The notes under the pieces: model-generated | Told to the model about the DNA's origin: nothing | The model's database searches: none | Seen by the model: only the letters and a program-made list of their open reading frames with translations | DNA from: a bacterium | GTDB taxonomy: Bacteria > Electryoneota > Electryoneia > Electryoneales > Electryoneaceae | Length of the DNA: 13,651 nucleotides | NCBI GenBank assembly: GCA_028278125.1 | Contig: JANQEY010000204.1 | Span: 1 to 13,651 of the forward strand | Reading direction: 5' to 3' | Position numbers and translations under genes: made by a program | In this document: positions 2,636 through 13,026 of the stretch, in pieces | How the letters are laid out: each line of letters begins with the position of its first letter | How positions within the stretch are numbered: position 1 is the first letter of the stretch

Positions 2636-3085
2636 TCAGGTACCTATAATATCCTTTACTCTTTCAATAACCTGTTCTGGATCGATTGGTTTATCAATAA
2701 ACATGTCCGGTTTGATCAAACCTTCTTCTTTCAGTTCCTGGATTTTAAGTCTCAGTTTTTCACGAAGGTTATCAAACGGTCTCATGAACGTGTCATCACT
2801 TTCGGCGTCAAGTCCGGCTAATGAATCAGCAACACCGGTAAGCATTATTACCGGGAGATCCTTGTGTTCTTCACTTTTTCTCAGCGATTGGAAAAGTGTA
2901 AAGCCGGTCTTTTTCGGCATCATCACGTCCAAGATGATGAGATCGGGATTTTCACTTTTGATCATCTCCAGCCCTTCCTTACCGTCGTACGCTCCCAGTG
3001 CCTGGTAGCCATTCTCTTCGAGGGCAACAGAAAGAAACTTTACTGTGTTCTCATCATCATCAATTACCAGTACTTTTTTTGCCAT
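2636..3085 (-). CDS. Single-domain response regulator with an enlarged C-terminal half
   Basis: The 149-residue protein is a CheY/Spo0F-like receiver without an output domain. The acidic pocket is D9-D10-D11, the phospho-acceptor is D53 in ILDVMMP, the switch threonine is T83 in MLTG, and the lysine is K132 in DKPID. In CheY the last two are about 22 residues apart; here they are 49 apart, because of an insert rich in charged residues between roughly 90 and 128. It starts 14 bp after the kinase stop, so the two are a cognate pair in one transcript. Lacking a DNA-binding domain, it probably acts by protein contact or in a phosphorelay. It is the last gene of the qmo-dsr series. Confidence 0.9.
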   Translation of the reverse strand: MAKKVLVIDDDENTVKFLSVALEENGYQALGAYDGKEGLEMIKSENPDLIILDVMMPKKTGFTLFQSLRKSEEHKDLPVIMLTGVADSLAGLDAESDDTFMRPFDNLREKLRLKIQELKEEGLIKPDMFIDKPIDPEQVIERVKDIIGT

Positions 3086-3099
3086 AGGTCTTCTCCACG

Positions 3100-4563
3100 T
3101 TAATTGCCGGACTTGCTTACCGGGAGCATAATTCTGAATGTTGTCCCCACATCCGGCTCAGATTCAACCTCTACTTTCCCATTATGGGCATCGATCATTC
3201 TTGAAGTAATCGCCAGCCCCAAGCCAGTGCCGGCTTTGCTTTTTGTACTGAAAAACGGGTTAAATATCTGTTCTATAACGTCTTCGTCCATCCCACAGCC
3301 GTTATCACTGATCTCAACAACTGCGTTCCGGCCTTCATGATTCAGATGAACACCAAGCTTAACTTCGGGTGTATCACCTTCATCATAACTTTTCCAGAGG
3401 CACGCGTCAAGTGCATTGGACACAATATCCATAATTGCTGAATGTACCATGCCATCATCAATAATCACTGGAGGCAGGTCTGGTGTTGGATTAAACTTCA
3501 GTTCGATACCTTTATCGCTGGCTGTCTGGCTGACGACTTTGTGGATTTTTTCGAGGGTATGGTTCAGGTCGACCTCGTTAAAACTCGGCTTCCAATCCTT
3601 TACATATCGAAGCATATCCATCGACATATTTGTCAGGCTGGATATTCCCTGCTGGACAATATCCCACCCCTCCACCAGCATATCTTTTTTATCCTTGGAC
3701 AGACCAAGTTTGACCATGTAAGCACCACCCTTACAGGCATTCAGGTAGTTCTTCATAGAGTGCTGAATTCCTGTAAATACCTGCCCAATGGCAATATATC
3801 GCTGAGACTGTAATAGTTGGTGCTGCAGGTATTTCTCCTCTGTTATGTCTTTACTGATCCCGATTGTACCGATCACCTCACCTGCCGGGTTGCGTAATCT
3901 TGAGATAGTAAGCAGCACGTCCCTGATCTTCCCCTCTTTTGTCAGGAAACGGGTTTCATAGTTGACAACGCTGTCTGTCTCTTCCAGCCTGCCGATCGCA
4001 ACTGCTCGGTCATCCGGGTTGGCAAATACCATTTCAATTGGTTTACCGATTACCTCCAGCCGGTTATATCCAAGCGCTTTTTCAGCGCCACCATTAATAG
4101 TACTGATCTTTCCAGACGCGCTGACAGTTATGATAATATCAGCAGAACTTTCGAGAATGCTCGCCACGTAATCACGGTTTTTCTTCAATTCATTCATTGA
4201 AGACTCAAACATGGATGCCATATCATTAAAAGAGGATGCGAGCAATCCGAATTCGGTACTCTCATCTTCTGCGAGACGGTAATCAAATTCCTTTTCAGCC
4301 AGCCGATAGAGGCCATCATCAAATGTATCGAGGGGATTTTTTATATATCGTGTTATAAATCCACGTGCAAAGAGAACACTTGCACCAAGAGTTATGCCAA
4401 CGATGATGATTAAAGGTATTATTCGATAAATTGCCGGTGTTTCCGGGGGGAAAATAAAATTGTCGAACAAGTAAATTATAATACTGGAAGCAAGTAACAT
4501 TGTTAAAACAAACAGTGATACCAGGATACTGAGTTTCCAGTTCATATTCATTCTATTCAACAT
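3100..4563 (-). CDS. Membrane-bound PAS-domain sensor histidine kinase
   Basis: The protein is about 487 residues from the ATG at 4563. The frame is open to an ATG at 4635, but that start would overlap the dsrP-like gene by 55 bp and add a polar N-terminus; neither start has a good ribosome site. Numbered from 4563, there are two membrane segments (about 11-33 and 46-70), a HAMP region (67-121), and a PAS/PAC sensor (129-241). The dimerisation helix carries H268 in GIQHSMKN. The ATPase domain has the N-box N383, DNGCG (420-424), the F-box NPFFSTK, and GTGLGL (445-450). The H-box lacks the usual acidic residue after His and the following NP. It lies 17 bp after the dsrP-like stop and 14 bp before the response regulator, which suggests that it senses the redox or quinone state linked to the complex. 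The signal is unknown. Confidence 0.88.
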   Translation of the reverse strand: MLNRMNMNWKLSILVSLFVLTMLLASSIIIYLFDNFIFPPETPAIYRIIPLIIIVGITLGASVLFARGFITRYIKNPLDTFDDGLYRLAEKEFDYRLAEDESTEFGLLASSFNDMASMFESSMNELKKNRDYVASILESSADIIITVSASGKISTINGGAEKALGYNRLEVIGKPIEMVFANPDDRAVAIGRLEETDSVVNYETRFLTKEGKIRDVLLTISRLRNPAGEVIGTIGISKDITEEKYLQHQLLQSQRYIAIGQVFTGIQHSMKNYLNACKGGAYMVKLGLSKDKKDMLVEGWDIVQQGISSLTNMSMDMLRYVKDWKPSFNEVDLNHTLEKIHKVVSQTASDKGIELKFNPTPDLPPVIIDDGMVHSAIMDIVSNALDACLWKSYDEGDTPEVKLGVHLNHEGRNAVVEISDNGCGMDEDVIEQIFNPFFSTKSKAGTGLGLAITSRMIDAHNGKVEVESEPDVGTTFRIMLPVSKSGN

Positions 4564-4580
4564 GATATTAATAGTAGCTA

Positions 4581-5759
4581 TTAATTCAGTGTTCTCGCCT
4601 CTGTTGGGAGCAGTTTCATGTATTTTAATCCCCATCCAAACATAAAGCCTATAATACCGAGGACACCAAGTGCCTGTAATACCTCAAGAAAACTCATCGT
4701 GTAGGAAGCGATTCCTTCTTCCATAACCGACTGTGTAATTTCCATGCCGGGGAACAGTTCTGCTGGATGGGTTAATCCCGGTATTACAATTACATATCGC
4801 TCGCATAACACCCCGAAAACCACAAGGCAGGACGCCAGCACAATCCACTTGATGGATTTACCCCTTTTCCTGTTGAAGAGGATAAACATTGGGATCACAA
4901 GTCCAACCAGTATCAAACCGAACCAGAATAACAGGCTGTGGATTCCTCCGAAGAGGTAATAAACCGCCGCCGGCCTTAATTCAACTACATATGCGCGATA
5001 AGCGTTTTCAACGAAAAGGAAATACAGTACAACAATAACACAAATCGCAAGGAACCTTCCCAGCCACACGATTAGTTCATCATCAACAACTCGATTAGTA
5101 AGTTTAAAAAGGACAACGATTACCAGGATCATTAAGGCCGTACCCGATGCCATTGCCGCAGCTACAAAACTTGCCGGGAGAAGAGGTGATTCATAGAGCA
5201 TTCTCGCTCCAAAGCCAAAAATAGCGCCTGTTCCGCTATGCACACAGAACGCCCAGCCAAAAGCCAGGGTAGCGATTACGGTGGTCAGTTTTTTCCGTTC
5301 AGTAAAAAGCGCCCAGAGGTAAACAACACAGATCATGATATGACCGATATACAGAATCGGGTTGATTGAAAACATTGATTGCAGGTTGAAGTGAACGAAT
5401 GGTTGCACAAATACGCGGTCAAGCCGTCCCTGGTCAGTGAGGATTGATAACAGTCCGGCAATCAGGAATAACATGGCGATATAAACCGCAATCCGGGCGA
5501 AAGGTTTGTATTCTATCTTTCCGAAAACGCCATATAAACCGGAAATCACCAGTGATCCAGCAGACAGACCGATATAGTAGACTGCCATCACGATCTGAAG
5601 TCCCCAAGGCACCCGTATTGTCATTCCAGTTACCCAGATACCCTTTTCAACAATCCACCAGGTCGCGATACCCCCTGCAATCGCGAAAGCGGCAAATACT
5701 ATCATCAATACCCGGTATAAAAACGAATTTCCATCGATATATTCAAACTTGATTTCCAT
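4581..5759 (-). CDS. dsrP: DsrP-like NrfD-family quinone-interacting membrane subunit
   Basis: The protein has 392 residues and about ten membrane helices (for example near 14-34, 52-74, 90-108, 132-152, 194-218, 231-250, 272-295, 303-325 and 355-377), as in the NrfD/PsrC/DsrP family. These proteins bind menaquinone in the membrane and pass electrons to or from an exported iron-sulfur partner. The late motif ERYVIVIPG near 320-328 is typical of the DsrP branch. The ATG at 5757-5759 has a good ribosome site (GAGGAAGCC just upstream). It lies 18 bp after the dsrO-like stop and 17 bp before the kinase start. Family membership is certain; assignment to DsrP rather than another NrfD protein rests on the DsrJ- and DsrO-like neighbours. 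Confidence 0.9.
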   Translation of the reverse strand: MEIKFEYIDGNSFLYRVLMIVFAAFAIAGGIATWWIVEKGIWVTGMTIRVPWGLQIVMAVYYIGLSAGSLVISGLYGVFGKIEYKPFARIAVYIAMLFLIAGLLSILTDQGRLDRVFVQPFVHFNLQSMFSINPILYIGHIMICVVYLWALFTERKKLTTVIATLAFGWAFCVHSGTGAIFGFGARMLYESPLLPASFVAAAMASGTALMILVIVVLFKLTNRVVDDELIVWLGRFLAICVIVVLYFLFVENAYRAYVVELRPAAVYYLFGGIHSLLFWFGLILVGLVIPMFILFNRKRGKSIKWIVLASCLVVFGVLCERYVIVIPGLTHPAELFPGMEITQSVMEEGIASYTMSFLEVLQALGVLGIIGFMFGWGLKYMKLLPTEARTLN

Positions 5760-5777
5760 GGCTTCCTCACGCCGGAA

Positions 5778-6518
5778 TTATAATCCGATATAGTACACTT
5801 TTGGATCAGTACCCAGGTCTTCCCTGATTCTTTTTACAGCGGTAGTCGAAACTATCTCAGAAATCTCGCTGTGTGGATCATTCAAATCACCAACTGTCAA
5901 CGCTCCGCATTCTTCCTGTCTACATGCTTCAACACATGCCGGTGACTGGTCTCGATCTAACCTGTGAGCACATAGATTGCACGCCTCAGCGACACCATGC
6001 GACCGTTTGGGAAAGTCCTTATTCGGCCACTCTTCACTGTCTTTAAAGTTGAAATAACGGGCGTTGTAGGGACAGGCGATCATACAGTACCGGCAACCGA
6101 TACACCTGTGATGATCAACTATAACTATCCCGTCATGTCGTTTATATGTGGCCTGAACCGGGCAGACCTGTGCACAAGGCGGTTTTTCACAATGATTACA
6201 GAGCAGGATGACAGATTTTTCAGTATGCTTGGCACCAACATGGCTCTCCAGCTTGACCTTCCTGATCCAGTGAATATCCCAGCGTTTGTCTTCGTGCGAG
6301 GCTACATTATTTTCTTCCCTGCAGGCATGCAGACAGGCAGTGCAACCATCCTTACATTTTGTCAGGTCAACAACCATTCCCCATTTTTTGCCGGTTAGTG
6401 CAGTTTCCTCATCCGTACCCTTGTAACCGAACGTTGTCAGGTAGCGAAACGCGTAAACACTTGTCGCGCCTGCAATAAAGGTACCGCCCGTAATTTTAAC
6501 AAAATCCCTTCTATCCAT
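5778..6518 (-). CDS. dsrO: DsrO-like exported ferredoxin with four [4Fe-4S] cysteine sets
   Basis: From the ATG at 6518 the protein has 246 residues. I prefer this start to an in-frame TTG at 6539 because it places a twin-arginine signal, DRRDFVKITGG, at the very N-terminus with GGTGAT just upstream. Cysteine sets are C55/59/62/66, C107/110/115/119, C139/142/145/149, and C180/183/195/199, which fits four clusters in the DsrO/PsrB/NrfC fold, plus an extra C204. The Tat signal means that it folds with its clusters inside and works on the periplasmic face, passing electrons between the cytochrome (DsrJ) and the NrfD-type subunit (DsrP) encoded on either side. Confidence 0.92.
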   Translation of the reverse strand: MDRRDFVKITGGTFIAGATSVYAFRYLTTFGYKGTDEETALTGKKWGMVVDLTKCKDGCTACLHACREENNVASHEDKRWDIHWIRKVKLESHVGAKHTEKSVILLCNHCEKPPCAQVCPVQATYKRHDGIVIVDHHRCIGCRYCMIACPYNARYFNFKDSEEWPNKDFPKRSHGVAEACNLCAHRLDRDQSPACVEACRQEECGALTVGDLNDPHSEISEIVSTTAVKRIREDLGTDPKVYYIGL

Positions 6519-6548
6519 AATATCACCCAGGTTTATCAATAAATCCGA

Positions 6549-6920
6549 TCACGGATAGTAATGACAATGGAAACAATCAGGATGCATGCTTACCGCGTTA
6601 TGGCATTTATCACAGAATTCTTCTCTTTTTGTATGGCAGCGGCTGCAATCATACAAACCTGTATCGCCTCTTTTTCCATATCGGACAACTTCTTCCCTGA
6701 TCCCTCTCAGCAGTTCCCAGTGCTGGAAACGCATGTATTCCGTTTCCCTGACACAATTCTCATATATCTCATCTGGCATTTCCAGGAAAACTTCCTTCTG
6801 AAGCTGGTTTTTCGCTGTCACACTTCCCACAAGCGAATATCCGAAAGGAATTAAAATCAGCAGTATCAGGATGATCGGGAGGATAGCCTTGAGACGTCCA
6901 CGATTATTATTGTTCGCCAT
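6549..6920 (-). CDS. dsrJ: DsrJ-like triheme cytochrome c
   Basis: From the ATG at 6920 the protein has 123 residues. That start has a strong ribosome site (GAGGAGG) and overlaps the end of qmoC by 14 bp; a start at 6938 is possible but has no such site. Residues 12-32 are a hydrophobic signal anchor. Three CxxCH haem motifs follow at C92-H96, C103-H107 and C116-H120. Before them lies NCVRETEYMR with C56, followed by HW and VVRYGKR, the conserved DsrJ pattern in which the cysteine is the candidate sixth ligand of an unusual His/Cys haem. The protein would sit in the periplasm, anchored to the membrane. This pattern, more than the haem count, identifies it as DsrJ. Confidence 0.9.
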   Translation of the reverse strand: MANNNNRGRLKAILPIILILLILIPFGYSLVGSVTAKNQLQKEVFLEMPDEIYENCVRETEYMRFQHWELLRGIREEVVRYGKRGDTGLYDCSRCHTKREEFCDKCHNAVSMHPDCFHCHYYP

Positions 6921-8247
6921 GAGTTTCCTCCTCGGCAACGACCTCTTCTACTTTCTCTTCGACAACCGGTTCATCGATAACTTCTTCTGCTTTCTCTTCA
7001 ACCACCCGTTTTACAAGCATCCCCTCTTTCCGTCCTGTATGTTCAGCAAAAACAAGTGCCGTGGTACGATATGCAAGGTGCGCAAGCTTGGAGTATGGCA
7101 GGTACATGATCAGCGTAGCAACAAAAACGAGATGGGCAAAATAGGCCAGGTGCCTGTGTGGTTCGAGACGGACATAATGCAGTATTTCCGTTACGAAACC
7201 GGTAATAACAATCAGGAGGATAGTCCCCAGCAGCATCCAGTCGAAGTAAGATCCGGCACCAAACTTGTCACTTTTTAGAAGACGGTCTTTTGCCATCAGC
7301 AGGCAGCCTATCAGAACAGCCAGGCCACCAACATTCGCCAGGATTTTCCACGGACTCCAGAAACTGAATGGATAGACAAAATCACCTTTTATCAGTGGAT
7401 TAATTCCAGATGTTATCACCCAGCTGGTAACAACCGTGAGCGCAATAAAACCGAAGAAAACAAAGATATGTGACGTAAACCGTGGTTTTGATTTCTCGCA
7501 GGTATCAAAGTTGTCATGGGTGAAAATACTCTTGAGCACAGATAAAAAGCTGGGCCAGACTTTTTTAGTCCGCCCTCGAATACTCTGAAAATACCTGTTG
7601 TTCTTCATCGCCTTCCACTGGCGCCTGACACCGATTACCAGGATAATAATTGAGAGAATGGTGAAAAAGAAGAAAAAACTGTTCAGCAGCCAGTGCGGAA
7701 ATACACTGGAATAGGGATAGCTTATCTGCCCGCTCAGATCTCGAGTTATTCCCAGTGCGCTTTCAAAATTATCCCTGAAGTATAGTGCCAGTGTGAGAAG
7801 CAGTGCCGGAATACCCAGGAGTAGCGGAAGATATTGAGGTTGATTTACCCGTTTTCCAATAAAATATGGAATCGAATAATTGATGACTGCTTCCTGCCTG
7901 ATAGCACCGAGGATATCACCCGGATGAGCACCACGTGGACATCGTGTCGAGCAATCGTTGCACTGGTAACATAACCAGATATCCGGATCTGACAAGAGAC
8001 GATCCTTAAGGCCCCAGCTAATCCACGCCATCTCCTTTCGAGGGAATGGTCGCAGGTCAGGTGAAATGGTACATGTAGCCGAACATGTCCCACACTGAAA
8101 ACATTTCTCAAAGGTTGTACCTATCCGCTGACCCAGGATTCTCTTAAATTCGAGATCCGGTTCAACGAATTCCGGTTCACCAATGTCAGGGGCAGTAAGA
8201 GTAGCCTGCTGGACTTCCTGCGGTATGGATTCCGATTTATCCTGCAT
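6907..8247 (-). CDS. qmoC: QmoC-like subunit: HdrC-like ferredoxin domain fused to cytochrome b-like membrane domain
   Basis: The 446-residue protein begins with a cytoplasmic HdrC-like domain binding two [4Fe-4S] clusters: C49/52/55/59 and C93/96/99/103. From about 140 there are six likely membrane helices (near 140-157, 187-207, 259-279, 303-319, 338-356 and 370-386) of the NarI/HdrE type, with histidines such as H185, H260, H357 and H372 as candidate haem b ligands. In known Qmo complexes this subunit links menaquinone to the soluble QmoAB flavoproteins. The ATG at 8247 has GAGAGGA upstream. The protein is longer than the roughly 390 residues I recall for QmoC, because of an acidic Glu/Val-rich tail from about 413 to the end. 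The DNA for that tail overlaps the dsrJ start. Confidence 0.92.
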   Translation of the reverse strand: MQDKSESIPQEVQQATLTAPDIGEPEFVEPDLEFKRILGQRIGTTFEKCFQCGTCSATCTISPDLRPFPRKEMAWISWGLKDRLLSDPDIWLCYQCNDCSTRCPRGAHPGDILGAIRQEAVINYSIPYFIGKRVNQPQYLPLLLGIPALLLTLALYFRDNFESALGITRDLSGQISYPYSSVFPHWLLNSFFFFFTILSIIILVIGVRRQWKAMKNNRYFQSIRGRTKKVWPSFLSVLKSIFTHDNFDTCEKSKPRFTSHIFVFFGFIALTVVTSWVITSGINPLIKGDFVYPFSFWSPWKILANVGGLAVLIGCLLMAKDRLLKSDKFGAGSYFDWMLLGTILLIVITGFVTEILHYVRLEPHRHLAYFAHLVFVATLIMYLPYSKLAHLAYRTTALVFAEHTGRKEGMLVKRVVEEKAEEVIDEPVVEEKVEEVVAEEETHGEQ

Positions 8248-8275
8248 TGTCCTCTCGCTGTTTATTTTATTTTTC

Positions 8276-8294
8276 TATAACACTCCCTGTTATG
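8276..8294 (-). promoter_or_regulatory. Short hairpin in the qmoB-qmoC gap
   Basis: ATAACA (8277-8282) and TGTTAT (8288-8293) form a perfect 6-bp stem with a 5-base loop. It lies in the 83-bp gap, the largest within the gene series. On the transcribed strand it is followed by an A-rich stretch leading to the qmoC ribosome site, so it does not look like a terminator. It could affect mRNA processing or be chance. Confidence 0.2.
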
Positions 8295-8330
8295 TCTGGC
8301 AGCTATCTATAATAAACACCTAATCTTAAG

Positions 8331-10604
8331 CTACATTCCCTTAAACGGATTCATTCCGAATTCTTCAATCACCTCTTCGAAATCGTTAAATATTTTCTGA
8401 AGTTTTTCATATTCAGATATCTGGAGCTGGTGAATTTCAACCCTTTCATGTTCCATCGCCATCTGTTCCAGTTTTTCCCTGATATTTTCACCTCGGTAAT
8501 CCGCCAGCTCACTTCCCTTGATAAAGTGGCACTGGTAATCATCGCCATGTTTGCAACCTACCATGATTACGCCATCATAACCGGCCGAAATCGCCTCCTT
8601 GATCCAGGATGTATTTACCGATCCAAGGCACCTGACCGGAATTGCCCGGATAAAGGGATTATATTGGATATGATGTTTCCCCATCAGGTCCATTGCCGGA
8701 AAAGCATCGTTTTCGCACATTAGAGCAAGGATTCTCGGTTTTTCCTCATCCTCATCGGGAACTTCAACCGCCTTGATCATCGCCTCAACAATACCAACTG
8801 AAAAATCTTTGAACGAGACAATTCGTTCCGGACAGGCACCCATACAGACACCACAACGACGACACCTTGTCGCCCAAAGCAATGGGTTATATTTCTCATC
8901 TTCGTTGAGAACACCGAACGGGCATTCCTCGGTGCAACGTTTACACTGTGTACATCTCTGCAGGAAGAAATCCGGGTACGATTTATCACCGGCCCTTGGA
9001 TGAACCGCCTCTCCCCTGGCGATCATCTCAACACACTGGATGGCCTTTAATGCAGCGCCGGTGGCGTCTTCCCTGCTGTTCAGACCATCCATAGGTTGAC
9101 GAACACTCCCGGCGGGATAAATTCCTGTCCGTCGGCTTTCATATGGGAAACAGATAAAATGTGAATCCGGGAAACCGTACTTAAGGGTTGGAAGATCGGG
9201 TCCCAGGCGGTAGCTGAGGTTAAGGATTTCGGTACCCTCGTGTTGTTTGAGTTCTTCGACTTTTTTAGCCGCCTTTTCTTTTTGAACGTCCGATTCTCCC
9301 TCGGCAGCAATATGTTTTGCCTCTTCGAGTGCACGGATCGCCTCTCCATCAGCTGAATTAGGAATCATGCCCGCCGCGAGAACCACCAGGTCGACTTTGA
9401 CCTGGATCTGCTCACCCTGCATGGTATTCTTAGCTGTAAGCACTAAAGTCCAGTCATCCCCGGGCGATACATCCGCGACTTCTCCCCTGGTCAGGAATAC
9501 ACCCGTGTCTTCCTGCACCCGGCGGTAGAAATCCTCATACAGGCCGGGGGTACGCATGAACTCATAGAAGATATACGCCTTGGCTTCTTTATCCTGCTCT
9601 CGTAAATACATCGCCTGCTTCAATGATGTCATGCAGCAAATTGAAGAGCAGTATGAAAAATGTTCCTTATTTTTCGATCCTCCACACTGGATAAATGCTA
9701 TATTTTTAACCTCTTTGCCGTCAGATGGACGAACTATTTTCCCATGTTCCTTGACTATTTCTTCGAGCTCAATATTGCGGATGACATTTTCGAGTTTGCC
9801 GTATGACAGATTGTCCCGTGGTTCCTTAGGTCTCCAGCCCGTTGCCTGGACAATCGATCCCACGCGGAATTTATCGATTGTCTCGCCGTCAGTTTTACCA
9901 TTTCCATTGGACTTAAGTTTTACATCAAACAGTCCGGGCCCACCGGCAATTTCGCTGGTGTATGCTGACGTATAGACCTGGATATTCTTGTGATTCTCAA
10001 CTTTAACTGCGAGTGCATCAGCGCCGGTATCCTCGAGGTTACGGAAAGGTGGTTTCGTTGGGATTGACTTGTATTGTTTCGCCAGCCAACCACCCAGTTT
10101 AGCAGATTTTTCCACCAGCCTGACCTTGTACCCTGTATCTGCTGCTTCAAGGGCGGCCGTCATTCCGGTAATTCCCCCACCAACAACCAGAACTGTCTTG
10201 TCGATAGGTTCTTCCGGCTGGTAAGGTTCAACCGGTTCCATTTTCTGGACTTTAGCGATATACATGCGAACGTAGTCTTCCGCCATCATCTGTGTATCTT
10301 CATCATTTGGCGGTTGACAGTTCACCACGTGCTCCAGGAGAGGGATTTTCTCCACCGTAACATCATTAGGGAATTCTTTTCCAGAATAACGTCTTGGAGA
10401 AATCCCCACGATAACTACCTTGTTCAATCCCTCCTTCTTGATATCCTCGTTGATATCGTCAATCACAGAACCTTCGCAGGAACTTATTATTTTTGAAAAT
10501 GCTACTTTGCATTCGTTGTCCGCGATTTTTTTCAATTCATCAATATCGAGGGCGTTTGCAATCCCATAACCCTTGCAGATAAATATTCCAAGCTTATCTT
10601 CCAT
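8331..10604 (-). CDS. qmoB: QmoB-like HdrA-type flavoprotein with ferredoxin and MvhD domains
   Basis: The 757-residue protein has a short N-terminal region and then an HdrA-like FAD-binding fold with VGGGITGMTA at 141-150. The HdrA cysteine pattern is C307, C319, C323 and C324. Two [4Fe-4S] clusters are encoded by C551/554/557/561 and C581/584/587/591, followed by an MvhD-type [2Fe-2S] domain with C630, C659, C684 and C692. This architecture is that of QmoB, a partner of QmoA in moving electrons between menaquinone and a cytoplasmic acceptor such as APS reductase. The ATG at 10602-10604 has a purine-rich ribosome site that overlaps the end of qmoA, only 2 bp away, so the two are translationally coupled. 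No aprAB is visible in this window, so the acceptor here is unknown. Confidence 0.93.
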   Translation of the reverse strand: MEDKLGIFICKGYGIANALDIDELKKIADNECKVAFSKIISSCEGSVIDDINEDIKKEGLNKVVIVGISPRRYSGKEFPNDVTVEKIPLLEHVVNCQPPNDEDTQMMAEDYVRMYIAKVQKMEPVEPYQPEEPIDKTVLVVGGGITGMTAALEAADTGYKVRLVEKSAKLGGWLAKQYKSIPTKPPFRNLEDTGADALAVKVENHKNIQVYTSAYTSEIAGGPGLFDVKLKSNGNGKTDGETIDKFRVGSIVQATGWRPKEPRDNLSYGKLENVIRNIELEEIVKEHGKIVRPSDGKEVKNIAFIQCGGSKNKEHFSYCSSICCMTSLKQAMYLREQDKEAKAYIFYEFMRTPGLYEDFYRRVQEDTGVFLTRGEVADVSPGDDWTLVLTAKNTMQGEQIQVKVDLVVLAAGMIPNSADGEAIRALEEAKHIAAEGESDVQKEKAAKKVEELKQHEGTEILNLSYRLGPDLPTLKYGFPDSHFICFPYESRRTGIYPAGSVRQPMDGLNSREDATGAALKAIQCVEMIARGEAVHPRAGDKSYPDFFLQRCTQCKRCTEECPFGVLNEDEKYNPLLWATRCRRCGVCMGACPERIVSFKDFSVGIVEAMIKAVEVPDEDEEKPRILALMCENDAFPAMDLMGKHHIQYNPFIRAIPVRCLGSVNTSWIKEAISAGYDGVIMVGCKHGDDYQCHFIKGSELADYRGENIREKLEQMAMEHERVEIHQLQISEYEKLQKIFNDFEEVIEEFGMNPFKGM

Positions 10605-10606
10605 GG

Positions 10607-11869
10607 CTATTCCCCCCCTCTGACACTTTGAATCGCCTTTAGTGCCGCTGCTGTGGATTCTTTTGTTGTTCGTGCCACATCACAGGGATGCTTAGCGCAC
10701 CCCAACGCGAATATCCCGTTATTCTCTCCGGAACCATCCAGGAAACCGTATTCATCCATTTCTATTCCGGCAGGAAGGTTAAGCTCATCCGTATTCGGGA
10801 CAACGCCGGTTGCCAGCACCACCAGGTCGAAGCCTTCGTGATGAATCTCCCCTGACAGAGTATCTTCTACATCCAGGATCAAATTGTTGGTGTTCGGATC
10901 TTCTTCGATATTGGCAACCTTACCCTTGAATGCTGCAAAGTTATCATCTTCCAGCATATCGTAGAAGAATTTCTCCAGCCTGCCAATAGTCCGGATATCT
11001 ATATAAAAGACAGTGACCTTTGCTTTCTCGTTCTTCTCGCGGACATACCTTGCCTGTTTCAACGATGCCATACAACAGACCGCTGAACAGTACGGTAGAT
11101 GGTTTTCATCTCTTGATCCCGCGCATTGGACAAAAGCGATATTTTCAGCTTTTATGCCGTCAGAGGGACGAACAATCTTGCCTTTGGTTGGACCACTTCT
11201 CGACGCGATTCTTTCCATCTGGACATTGGTGATGATATTCGGAAATTTCTCAAATCCAAGGTTGTCCAGGTTGATAGCGTCGTACGGACGCCAACCCGTA
11301 GCGATTATCACCGCCCCCACATCAACCTTAATCTCTTCCTCCATCATCCCGAGGTCGATAGTCCCGGCAGGGCATAATTCTTTGAGCTTCTTGGCGTCAG
11401 CATCGGAAAGTGCTTCCCTGTCAATTACGTATTGCGAAGGGTATGCCATCTCATGCGGCATATAAAGCGCCTTGGTCTTATCCATACCAAGGTTGAAGTC
11501 ATTCACTCTCTCAGAAGAAATCTTTTCGATGATTGAATCGTCAGGCGTATATTCCCCGGTCACATACCTGGGATTGACTTTTATCATCGCCTTAAAATTA
11601 CCGGCTGTCCCGGTTATTTCTTCGACTGAGGCCAGTGTATAAACTGTGATACGTGGATTTTGCTTGATCCGTCTTGCGTTTATCTCAAATCCACATGTGG
11701 GAGGGCACATCTTTGGAAAATAACGGTAGGTTCTTATAACACGTCCGCCTAAGTAAGCCTCTTTTTCTACCAGGATGACATTGTATCCTACTTCCGCGGC
11801 TTCCACCGCCGCCGTCATCCCTCCAATACCTCCTCCGATAACAAGAATAGGTTTTGTTTTTGTATTCAT
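10607..11869 (-). CDS. qmoA: QmoA-like HdrA-type flavoprotein
   Basis: The 420-residue protein is close to the usual QmoA length. It has an N-terminal FAD-binding GGGIGG motif at 12-17, FPKMCPPTCG (51-60) with C55 and C59, the HdrA-type set C249, C261, C265 and C266, and a C-terminal C391/C396 pair in LGCAKHPCDVAR. QmoA is the cytoplasmic flavin subunit of the quinone-interacting membrane oxidoreductase. It lacks the ferredoxin insert found in methanogen HdrA, as expected for QmoA. The ATG at 11867-11869 has AAGGGA upstream. It is the first gene of the minus-strand series; a candidate promoter lies 50-90 bp upstream. Confidence 0.94.
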   Translation of the reverse strand: MNTKTKPILVIGGGIGGMTAAVEAAEVGYNVILVEKEAYLGGRVIRTYRYFPKMCPPTCGFEINARRIKQNPRITVYTLASVEEITGTAGNFKAMIKVNPRYVTGEYTPDDSIIEKISSERVNDFNLGMDKTKALYMPHEMAYPSQYVIDREALSDADAKKLKELCPAGTIDLGMMEEEIKVDVGAVIIATGWRPYDAINLDNLGFEKFPNIITNVQMERIASRSGPTKGKIVRPSDGIKAENIAFVQCAGSRDENHLPYCSAVCCMASLKQARYVREKNEKAKVTVFYIDIRTIGRLEKFFYDMLEDDNFAAFKGKVANIEEDPNTNNLILDVEDTLSGEIHHEGFDLVVLATGVVPNTDELNLPAGIEMDEYGFLDGSGENNGIFALGCAKHPCDVARTTKESTAAALKAIQSVRGGE

Positions 11870-11917
11870 GAATCTTCCCTTAACCTGGATTCAGAATCTG
11901 TTCACTTGTACCCGGAT

Positions 11918-11961
11918 TAATTGTTATCTATATGCAATTAGTCGTTCTCAGTTAATGCAAT
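11918..11961 (-). promoter_or_regulatory. Candidate promoter and dyad upstream of qmoA
   Basis: On the minus strand, TTAACT (11955-11950) and TATAGA (11932-11927) are 17 bp apart, each 4 of 6 to the sigma70 consensus. A perfect inverted repeat, TAATTG at 11918-11923 and CAATTA at 11935-11940, is centred on the -10 element. A 7-bp direct repeat, ATGCAAT, lies at 11932-11938 and 11955-11961, 23 bp apart, about two helical turns. Together these suggest an operator over a promoter, but AT-rich DNA yields such matches easily. Confidence 0.35.
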
Positions 11962-12697
11962 GAACTGTCACCACGATCTTTCAAGCTCAGGTGAGATATC
12001 TTGTATTTCACTAATGAGCCGTAAACGTAGCAAGCATAACTGGATAAAAGAGGCTACCTCCCCTATTAAATGAAGATTATGCAGTCTTATACTACATCTA
12101 AGAAGCTAATAAATATGATTATGTGCTCGACCAGCGGGAAAATCTTAAAAACGTTACCGTTTTGCTTTATAATTGTGGTTCAGTAGATGGCATATCACAG
12201 GTTGTGATTAAATATTAATAGCAATTATATACCAGAGCAAGTTATTGAGTGTTGATTTACAAAAATATTAGTTTAAACCAACATTTTTCCCATCTTCTTA
12301 TACTTGCATAGGATATGATTGAAATAATTGTTTTTATCGAATAATCAATACCAATCAAGAACTTATGATGAGATATTTCAGTGCAAAAGTTAGACATATC
12401 TAAAAAATTACGATCGCTTTGATCATTATTACTCTCGTTTGTTTCAATTAATCTGCCAATATGTTATACTAGTCTAACATTTTTGAAGAAAACAGGCTAA
12501 CCAGTACAACAATTTTTCATATAAAGCAAAATATAATGAGAATAATTAATTTGGCTCACTATTCAGGGAAGAATAAAACAGGTGAGTAAAATATAAACAA
12601 TCATATCCATATATTTATTAATTAAATATGATTAATGAGTTATTTAACTCATATATTTCATAAAATCTCCAATTAATCGACTTTAGTAAAGGTAAAC
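11962..12697. other. AT-rich stretch without a recognisable gene
   Basis: I find no convincing coding region here on either strand. It holds only short dyads: ATCACA-GGT-TGTGAT at 12194-12208, AAAACG-TTAC-CGTTTT at 12148-12163, ATGTTA-N8-TAACAT followed by four T at 12461-12484 (+), and ATGAGTT-ATTT-AACTCAT at 12635-12652. None matches a motif I can name. The composition is clearly more AT-rich than the qmo-dsr genes. It may be decayed DNA downstream of the former tRNA gene, or a long leader or regulatory region. Confidence 0.5.
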
Positions 12698-12727
12698 AAA
12701 AAAAGGATTACATTTCGAAATGTAATC
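12698..12727 (-). terminator. Rho-independent terminator behind the tRNA-Arg fragment
   Basis: GATTACATTTC at 12706-12716 and GAAATGTAATC at 12717-12727 make a perfect 22-bp palindrome. On the minus strand it is followed by C and seven T (12704-12698). It lies 13 bp after the 3' end of the tRNA fragment, the usual place for a tRNA terminator, so it is probably the original terminator of that tRNA gene. Confidence 0.8.
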
Positions 12728-12741
12728 ATTTTATTATTAAG

Positions 12742-12786
12742 TACCCCCGGCGCGAGTCGAACACGCGACCTACAGATTAGGAATCT
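12742..12786 (-). other. 3' fragment of tRNA-Arg(CCU), probable attR attachment site
   Basis: On the minus strand this 45-bp stretch runs from the last three bases of the 5' anticodon stem to the discriminator base. It contains the anticodon loop TTCCTAA (anticodon CCU, 12781-12779), a TTCGACT T-loop with five paired stem positions, and the 3' acceptor strand CGGGGGT. CCA is not encoded. The 5' half is missing: the sequence before it has no matching acceptor strand and no D-arm, and positions 27-28 of the anticodon stem no longer pair. A loss of homology exactly at the anticodon stem is the usual signature of a tyrosine-integrase att core. The fragment with its terminator would be the displaced native end (attR), with the inserted DNA on the higher-coordinate side. 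No integrase gene is in view. Confidence 0.7.
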
Positions 12787-13026
12787 CGTATTTACAAAAC
12801 CAACCGCATTATATCACTATTAACCACACGTACATATTTCCTAAACACAGAATCCTCTTTTGTTACCTTTTGCTAGGTTTTATGGGTTTTCGCTGCATAG
12901 TGCCACAATAGTGCTACATTTCCCCTCATTAATAAATCACATTATTTTTGGTTGTTTTCGAAAATGTTTCAGATCCATTACAGATCGACTGAATTACTCA
13001 AATATTATCAATTTCCCATCGTGAAT
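12787..13026. other. Non-coding stretch beside the att-like site
   Basis: No supportable gene lies between the tRNA fragment and the permease stop. If the att reading is right, this is the terminal segment of an integrated element. Its only distinct structure is the tandem repeat at 12897-12918. Confidence 0.4.
12897..12918. repeat. Two tandem 11-bp direct repeats near the att-like site
   Basis: ATAGTGCCACA (12897-12907) is followed directly by ATAGTGCTACA (12908-12918), with one difference in 11 bases. The pair lies about 110 bp from the tRNA fragment, on the inferred element side. Integrase arm-type sites are often short direct repeats at such distances, so this is a candidate for one. The repeats themselves are plain in the sequence; the role is inferred. 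Confidence 0.5.

Follow-up and report, generated by a model that had tools for sequence, protein, structure and literature searches.

We describe an operon that joins the genes of a QmoABC complex to a J-O-P arm of the DsrMKJOP type, in the order qmoA-qmoB-qmoC-dsrJ-dsrO-dsrP. It lies on contig JANQEY010000204.1 (assembly GCA_028278125.1), from a bacterium of the Electryoneota, and by the window we mean the whole 13,651-nucleotide stretch of this contig that was analysed. The six-gene operon is real: all the genes share a single strand, and the gaps between them from qmoA to dsrP are, in order of transcription, 2, 83, -32, 9 and 18 bases. The arrangement recurs in 22 public genomes. Our preferred reading, which we place only slightly above an even chance, is that the products form one membrane complex, which supplies adenosine 5′-phosphosulfate (APS) reductase as an alternative Qmo and has an arm for menaquinone and cytochrome. 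The features of the operon are as follows.

10607..11869, minus strand: QmoA, 420 aa, an HdrA-type flavoprotein that retains the flavin adenine dinucleotide (FAD) motif and the TrxR-domain cysteines; the inserted ferredoxin-domain cysteines are gone
11519..11551, minus strand: QmoA residues 107-117, the place of CxxCxxCxxxC in most other QmoA/HdrA
8331..10604, minus strand: QmoB, 757 aa, an HdrA-type flavoprotein with C-terminal ferredoxin clusters and an MvhD/FlpD domain
10401..10577, minus strand: QmoB residues 10-68, the N-terminal cluster region
6907..8247, minus strand: QmoC, 446 aa, an HdrC-like iron-sulfur domain fused with a six-helix cytochrome b domain
7150..7191, minus strand: QmoC residues 353-366, a hybrid-specific motif, predicted periplasmic, with the consensus TE.LHY.RLEPHRH
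6549..6938, minus strand: DsrJ-like triheme cytochrome c, with three CxxCH, one N-terminal hydrophobic segment and a conserved Cys before a YMR..H stretch
5778..6539, minus strand: DsrO-like ferredoxin, with 16 conserved cluster cysteines and a twin-Arg export motif
4581..5759, minus strand: DsrP-like membrane protein of the NrfD family, a full-length homologue of canonical DsrP with 9-10 predicted helices

The first-pass annotation of this DNA had proposed this gene order on one strand, with DsrM and DsrK missing. The six minus-strand open reading frames (ORFs) are where it had put them, none of the ten window ORFs scanned is named DsrM or DsrK by NCBIfam, and no ORF of the window matched in searches with DsrM and DsrK references.

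It had also proposed that adjacent qmoC and dsrJ be sought in other genomes. We now count 23 hybrid loci, including the window (loci are numbered L, genomes G and contigs C), and the complete order is present in 16 of them, L005 being included with qmoA and qmoB in broken frames. The seven incomplete loci (L003, L007, L009, L132, L134, L149 and L153) are interrupted by a contig end or an N gap; in L132 and L134 dsrP and the neighbouring kinase and receiver genes (see below) alone are visible, and the remainder of the operon is assumed. An initial pattern scan for QmoC in genome contigs, confined to close relatives, had given 40 loci, with the hybrid in 11 (L001-L010 and L033). Searches for DsrP-like proteins added the hosts G024, G025, G079, G081, G119, G122, G262, G361, G533, G539 and G541. 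Counted by phylum, and taking in the hosts known from the QmoC scan, such proteins were matched in 12 of 132 genomes in the phylum of G001 (Zixiibacteriota), 4 of 39 in that of G002 (Electryonea clarkiae) and 4 of 392 sampled genomes in that of G009 (Pirellulales), where one match, G149, is a DsrMK-like variant. Furthermore, 7999 candidates scored in a DsrP-like protein search included 1022 relatives at E <= 1e-10, the best 120 of which are 76-100% identical and come from sources that include Zixibacteria, KSB1, LCP-89, Calditrichaeota and Planctomycetota. An order complete in 16 of 23 loci goes far beyond what chance would give. In these analyses ORF calls were mechanical, and for some alignments overlong ORFs (e.g. 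in L033 and L148) were first trimmed to a C-terminal part; rows were dropped if they spanned less than 60-85% of the reference, depending on the analysis, and in some analyses masked rows were dropped too.

A conserved, predicted periplasmic face on QmoC speaks for a link between the two halves of the operon. This subunit scores 392 bits and passes the NCBIfam equivalog NF038018 (cut-off 300), and its histidines 244, 260, 372 and 390 are invariant in an 18-row alignment, as expected if they hold two haems b. The core motif H-x4-[ED]-P-H-R (consensus LHY.RLEPHRH) was checked on 58 distinct QmoC rows, made up of 21 hybrid, 36 other and the L069 row. All 21 hybrids have it, none of the 36 others does, and it is missing from the L104/L069 copy, which belongs to an operon without dsrJ. 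We call a position hybrid-specific when at least 90% of hybrids share a residue there that no more than 15% of others have (21 hybrids, and 25 non-hybrid rows chosen by locus). There are 26 such positions, and 22 fall in the predicted periplasmic half, which holds 127 of the 399 positions tested (Fisher p 1.3e-8; here and below, the Fisher tests assume independent columns or genomes, an assumption that does not hold). For the membrane domain alone the figures are 22 of 25 against 127 of 281 (p 4.6e-6). As a control, the canonical Zixiibacteriota-type clade of QmoC has 8 of 17 specific positions in the periplasmic half (p 0.12), or 8 of 16 in the membrane domain (p 0.38), and for canonical-specific positions the counts are 3 of 5 (p 0.17) and 3 of 3 (p 0.08). 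The limits of the periplasmic half are midpoints of modelled helices, fixed after the list of hybrid-specific positions was seen. The helix limits come from a model with a mean predicted local distance difference test (pLDDT) score of 77.3; six hydrophobic segments agree with them, and the loop charges agree with the positive-inside rule. On this model the hybrid-specific residues would be periplasmic, and what is new in the hybrids, as judged from the alignments, is that they conserve the periplasmic loops of QmoC. The motif, found in QmoC encoded beside dsrJ, supports a physical complex. The conserved gene order, a separate JOP clade (described next) and this predicted face together support the earlier suggestion of a dedicated complex with QmoC in the position of DsrM. 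A Foldseek search with the QmoC model returned weak matches at best (EtfD, HdrC and NarI), with nothing at E <= 0.001.

The J-O-P proteins have their own history. In the window DsrO scores 292.6 bits and passes its NCBIfam equivalog (NF045797, cut-off 200), DsrJ scores 64.8 and fails NF038038 (cut-off 100), and DsrP scores 79.9 and fails NF045798 (cut-off 350). The canonical copies of the relative G010 reach 399.6 (QmoC), 309.1 (O), 170.1 (J) and 459.3 bits (P). Because of these scores we class O as DsrO-like by family test and J and P as divergent paralogues, so the name DsrJOP given at first stands for O and needs qualifying for the other two. The hhalign comparison of the DsrP-like protein with canonical DsrP makes their homology evident, at a probability of 98.8 and with 23% identity across 356 columns. 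With a mean pLDDT of 68 the DsrP model is weak, and it served for the helix count alone. A sequence search of solved structures with DsrP and DsrJ gave no match, and no DsrMKJOP chain is among the listed structure matches of DsrO, DsrP, DsrJ and QmoC. The three CxxCH and the conserved Cys of DsrJ, which we take to be a haem ligand of DsrJ, are retained in 16 of 16 aligned hybrids, and the 16 cysteines of DsrO in 20 of 20 rows.

The trees of both proteins split hybrid from canonical rows by a branch with support 100/100, with 17 against 12 rows for DsrP and 16 against 13 for DsrO. The DsrP branch is very long, at about 10 changes per column in all. The trees are unrooted and show separation, not the order of events; the hybrid sets for DsrO, DsrP and QmoC include the L104/L069 copy, and the DsrP tree omits G009's own divergent DsrP (L112, 26% identity to canonical). 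From trees and scores we read J, O and P as a separate, divergent clade, apart from the DsrMKJOP of the same genomes, which answers the question, raised in the first-pass annotation, of whether they form a clade of their own. The same evidence rules out that a canonical JOP had moved beside qmo. Of the pair of findings that the first-pass annotation had set against a hybrid, one was seen, namely a separate canonical dsrMKJOP in relatives, and the other was not, as the operon's JOP proteins do not cluster with canonical ones.

The flavoproteins have changed too. The inserted-ferredoxin motif CxxCxxCxxxC, whose region was aligned onto HdrA chains, is present in 17 of 20 other QmoA, and all 16 hybrids lack each of its four cysteines. 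At the N-terminus of QmoB, a region that matches the HdrA N-terminal domain, C10 and C43 are retained and C13 and C68 lost in 17 of the 18 hybrids where it could be read, as against 14 of 16 other QmoB so read with all four cysteines. According to the available part of PMC9012536 (the papers cited below are likewise used as far as their text was available), the low-potential electron pair of HdrA exits via the inserted ferredoxin domain and the N-terminal cluster. The suggestion that QmoAB bifurcates electrons is consequently not supported, and we disfavour it, since the cluster ligands of the ferredoxin branch are gone in QmoA and halved in QmoB. The hybrids do retain the FAD motif, the TrxR-domain cysteines and the C-terminal ferredoxin and MvhD cysteines, and their specific positions are few (11 of 419 in QmoA and 16 of 747 in QmoB). 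One cysteine is exclusive to them, QmoA C396 (with C391), found in 16 of 16 hybrids against 0 of 19 others.

In the QmoA tree the hybrids (16 rows) group together (support 98) with the Omnitrophota locus L011 as sister (100), and in the QmoC tree the hybrids (17 of 52 rows) lie on one side of a branch with a Shimodaira-Hasegawa-like approximate likelihood ratio (SH-aLRT) support of 99. In L011 QmoABC lies downstream of aprBA on the same strand, with no JOP attached, and because of this the hybrid QmoAB lineage plausibly derives from an APS-linked Qmo.

A good illustration of how the arm may be exchanged is L150 (G149:C15, 7005-12673), where the order is DsrC, DsrM-like, J, O, P, DsrK-like and DsrC-family. 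Its JOP belongs to the hybrid clade by the DsrO tree and the DsrP match, and its DsrM-like and DsrK-like proteins reach 87.7 bits (cut-off 300) and 360.6 bits (cut-off 400). The JOP arm looks like a swappable module because the same JOP type sits here with DsrM-like and DsrK-like partners. Taken by itself, L150 reads as a divergent DsrMKJOP flanked on both sides by a DsrC-family gene. A second variant, L104 (G008:C97, 2798-6385), has QmoC followed by DsrO and DsrP, without QmoAB and without dsrJ, in an Acidobacteria metagenome-assembled genome (G008) that also carries the full hybrid; a DsrJ remnant was sought between its QmoC and DsrO in three frames, none of which has a CxxCH. Downstream of the L009 operon, and on its strand, come sat, a small ORF, dsrC, dsrM and dsrK.

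What else do the hosts carry? The checks proposed at the outset for dsrAB, aprAB and a separate dsrMKJOP were largely positive. DsrA is hit in 20 of 22 hosts (19 over the cut-off, with a fragment below it in G006), and none was found at the thresholds used in G025 and G541. AprA is over the cut-off in 20 of 22, DsrK likewise in 20 of 22 (not in G006 and G262), and a non-hybrid DsrO in all 11 hosts searched. The hybrid is the only QmoC over the cut-off in G009 and G361, and G361 does have AprA. In G262 and G008 the extra QmoC matches outside the hybrid clade are sub-threshold, G008 having also the L104 copy. Among the 132 genomes in the phylum of G001, 51 carry DsrA, and these include 11 of the 12 with a hybrid-type DsrP (Fisher p 1.2e-4, relatedness ignored). 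Absences count for little here, since many of the host assemblies are fragmented and come with no figure for completeness. The operon appears to be an extra complex in a minority of Dsr-bearing genomes and not a replacement, because most hosts have a non-hybrid QmoC and canonical DsrK/DsrO and because hybrids are found in a minority of DsrA carriers; that it replaces a missing DsrMKJOP is ruled out by the canonical DsrK/DsrO of the hosts. One further QmoC gene, L101 (G002:C98, 7086-8405), has no adjoining qmoAB, and a large kinase-like ORF lies upstream of it on the other strand.

The conserved neighbourhood extends beyond the six genes of the first-pass annotation, by two genes downstream of dsrP.

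3100..4635, minus strand: histidine kinase (HAMP, PAS, HATPase), a conserved neighbour downstream of dsrP
2636..3085, minus strand: stand-alone receiver protein, in which a receiver domain was the only domain found by Pfam; a conserved neighbour

The kinase adjoins 19 of the 23 loci, and in 18 the receiver is there too (L003 is cut). Of three layouts, two have the kinase on the operon's strand, either downstream or (in L148) upstream, and in the third (L149) it is convergent. The top NCBIfam match of the receiver is the DVU0259 family, at 99.1 bits under a cut-off of 160; DVU0259 presumably lies near the Tmc redox operon in Desulfovibrio.

We propose the following mechanism. QmoC would be a trans-membrane wire, a cytochrome b with an HdrC-like iron-sulfur head, that binds QmoAB on its cytoplasmic side and has gained on its periplasmic side a surface where the DsrJ-like cytochrome and the DsrO/DsrP-like module dock. 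Electrons might enter by oxidation of menaquinol at the DsrP-like subunit, or from a periplasmic cytochrome via DsrJ, and would then pass through the QmoC haems and the HdrC head to QmoAB and on to AprAB. The membrane arm would substitute for the HdrA-type ferredoxin branch that is gone from the hybrid QmoAB, and the complex would work in a cell that also has canonical Qmo and DsrMKJOP, probably under the control of the neighbouring kinase and receiver. Assembly of the six subunits, AprAB as the partner, electron direction, charge translocation and regulation are all parts of the scheme that we infer. AprAB as the partner would be consistent with its co-occurrence in hosts, with G361 and with L011.

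Several observations weigh against this proposal. A second, non-hybrid QmoC over the cut-off is present in 18 of 22 hosts and could serve AprAB, and AprA over the cut-off was not found in two of the 22 hosts searched (G005 and G009). A search of the DNA fetched for the 23 loci, several of them truncated, found neither aprA nor aprB. The cluster losses go with the JOP arm as far as the alignments tell, but are not unique to it: they are seen also in L011 and in L103 of G002, and in L009 the hybrid QmoB retains all four N-terminal cysteines. Hybrid QmoB is not one clade, as L011 falls between L009 and the other hybrids. L008, L009 and L033 have neither the kinase nor the receiver, and L007 is cut. 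As for QmoC, a model (mean pLDDT 77) and a count of charges are the basis of its topology. Furthermore, the periplasmic half holds 9 of 61 conserved positions in canonical QmoC against 53 of 127 in hybrids, and part of the hybrid-specific excess may arise because canonical periplasmic loops are variable, which makes such positions easier to find. L103 deserves a note of its own: at G002:C57, 1889-5439, a non-hybrid QmoA/QmoB lies beside sat-aprBA, with most inserted-ferredoxin cysteines and all N-terminal cluster cysteines gone.

The same complex could also run in reverse, taking AprAB/QmoAB electrons from sulfite oxidation, during disproportionation or sulfide oxidation, through QmoC to menaquinone and DsrJ, with acceptors in the periplasm or outside the cell at the end. 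This would explain the two Qmo copies implied by the second QmoC of 18 of the 22 hosts, and the clusters that are missing are those of the ferredoxin branch, possibly needed for uphill reduction. An untyped GltD/DsrL-like gene lies close to dsrAB in seven hosts (G001, G002, G003, G004, G008, G009 and G010) and on the same contig as dsrAB in G011; DsrL-2 has been described in such phyla (PMC7596348). On the other hand, sequence fixes no direction, and the L009 operon sits with sat, dsrC and dsrMK; we regard the reverse direction as unlikely, if worth keeping in view. Equally unlikely to our minds is a real complex whose QmoAB serves a cytoplasmic partner other than AprAB, such as another flavoprotein or a soluble carrier. 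No aprAB is found in the fetched DNA of the hybrid loci, whereas several canonical QmoC genes of hosts (G001, G003, G004, G006 and G010) stand beside sat-aprBA, and the hybrid-only C396 of QmoA would suit a different partner. Against this stand the AprA of 20 of 22 hosts, the case of G361, where the hybrid is the lone QmoC found, and the small number of hybrid-specific positions in QmoA and QmoB.

Two further explanations do away with the complex. QmoABC and JOP paralogues may form two separate complexes that are merely co-transcribed, as might be suggested by L150, where JOP-type genes have DsrM-like and DsrK-like partners, and by L104, where QmoC alone accompanies O and P. We find this improbable, since a predicted periplasmic face of QmoC is conserved in hybrids only, the motif is gone where DsrJ is gone, and the QmoC of L104 remains with O and P even without QmoAB. 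The other explanation is an assembly join, a concern of the first-pass annotation, or a chance adjacency of ordinary qmo and dsr genes, and the window is indeed one metagenome-type contig. The same order in many assemblies rules out a join, the JOP proteins are of a single divergent clade, and we give this explanation practically no weight.

Comparison with known systems places the preferred reading, an alternative Qmo with a periplasmic arm, among related complexes. Like canonical QmoABC, the hybrid has three Qmo subunits, a QmoC over the NF038018 cut-off with four invariant histidines, and the retained FAD-motif, TrxR-domain, C-terminal ferredoxin and MvhD cysteines. It differs in lacking the inserted-ferredoxin cluster of QmoA (also missing in 3 of 20 others) and two N-terminal cysteines of QmoB, and in having a new QmoC face, a joined JOP and the status of an additional copy in its hosts. 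With DsrMKJOP it shares a triheme DsrJ with the conserved Cys, a twin-Arg DsrO, an NrfD-like DsrP and the J-O-P order. Unlike DsrMKJOP, the six-gene block has no DsrM or DsrK in the window and relatives (L009 has both further downstream), its J and P are under the equivalog cut-offs, and its JOP forms a clade separate from the DsrMKJOP of the same genomes. The L150 operon of G149 has JOP of the same clade, with DsrM-like, DsrK-like and DsrC genes in place of QmoABC. HdrABC bifurcating complexes resemble the hybrid in the HdrA-like QmoA/QmoB, the HdrC-like head of QmoC and the MvhD domain, whereas the hybrid lacks the ferredoxin-branch cluster ligands and has a membrane cytochrome b domain. In cable bacteria, DsrOP homologues occur with a tetrahaem cytochrome, a DsrOP-type module re-used with another partner, and the available part of that paper describes no Qmo linkage (PMC13047784).

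The closest description in the literature searched reports two Qmo types and congruent DsrJOP trees (PMC10504309), and variable dsr operons are reported in Electryoneota (PMC10439189). In the open-licence literature searched, as far as its text was available, no description of qmo joined to dsrJOP was found. The route of electrons to APS reductase is unsettled: PMC10553843 states that the reaction of menaquinol with AprAB should be endergonic and mentions a proposed confurcation in which a second donor, as yet unclear, takes part. A natural Qmo without the HdrA ferredoxin branch and with a periplasmic arm offers a direct test of the confurcation idea. The hybrid may link APS reduction, with which the reductive part of sulfate respiration begins, directly to electron carriers outside the inner membrane. 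If so, the Qmo and Dsr membrane complexes would be built from swappable parts, and uncultured sulfate reducers would have an added respiratory route. A bolder version, tentative and in our view doubtful, is that of a third class of respiratory complex in sulfate reduction. This would be a trans-membrane Qmo in which periplasmic or menaquinol electrons, by way of an NrfD-type module, drive APS reduction, with the arm replacing the proposed ferredoxin confurcation and J-O-P exchangeable on DsrMK and QmoABC, and O-P on QmoC alone.

Two other parts of the window deserve a mention. An ORF at 145-1566 has a short PPDK_N match and a nucleotidyltransferase domain, a pairing that looks unusual. Upstream of qmoA, at 11870-13026, about 1.1 kb has no ORF of at least 80 aa and is low in guanine and cytosine (a fraction of 0.305 over 12001-13000).

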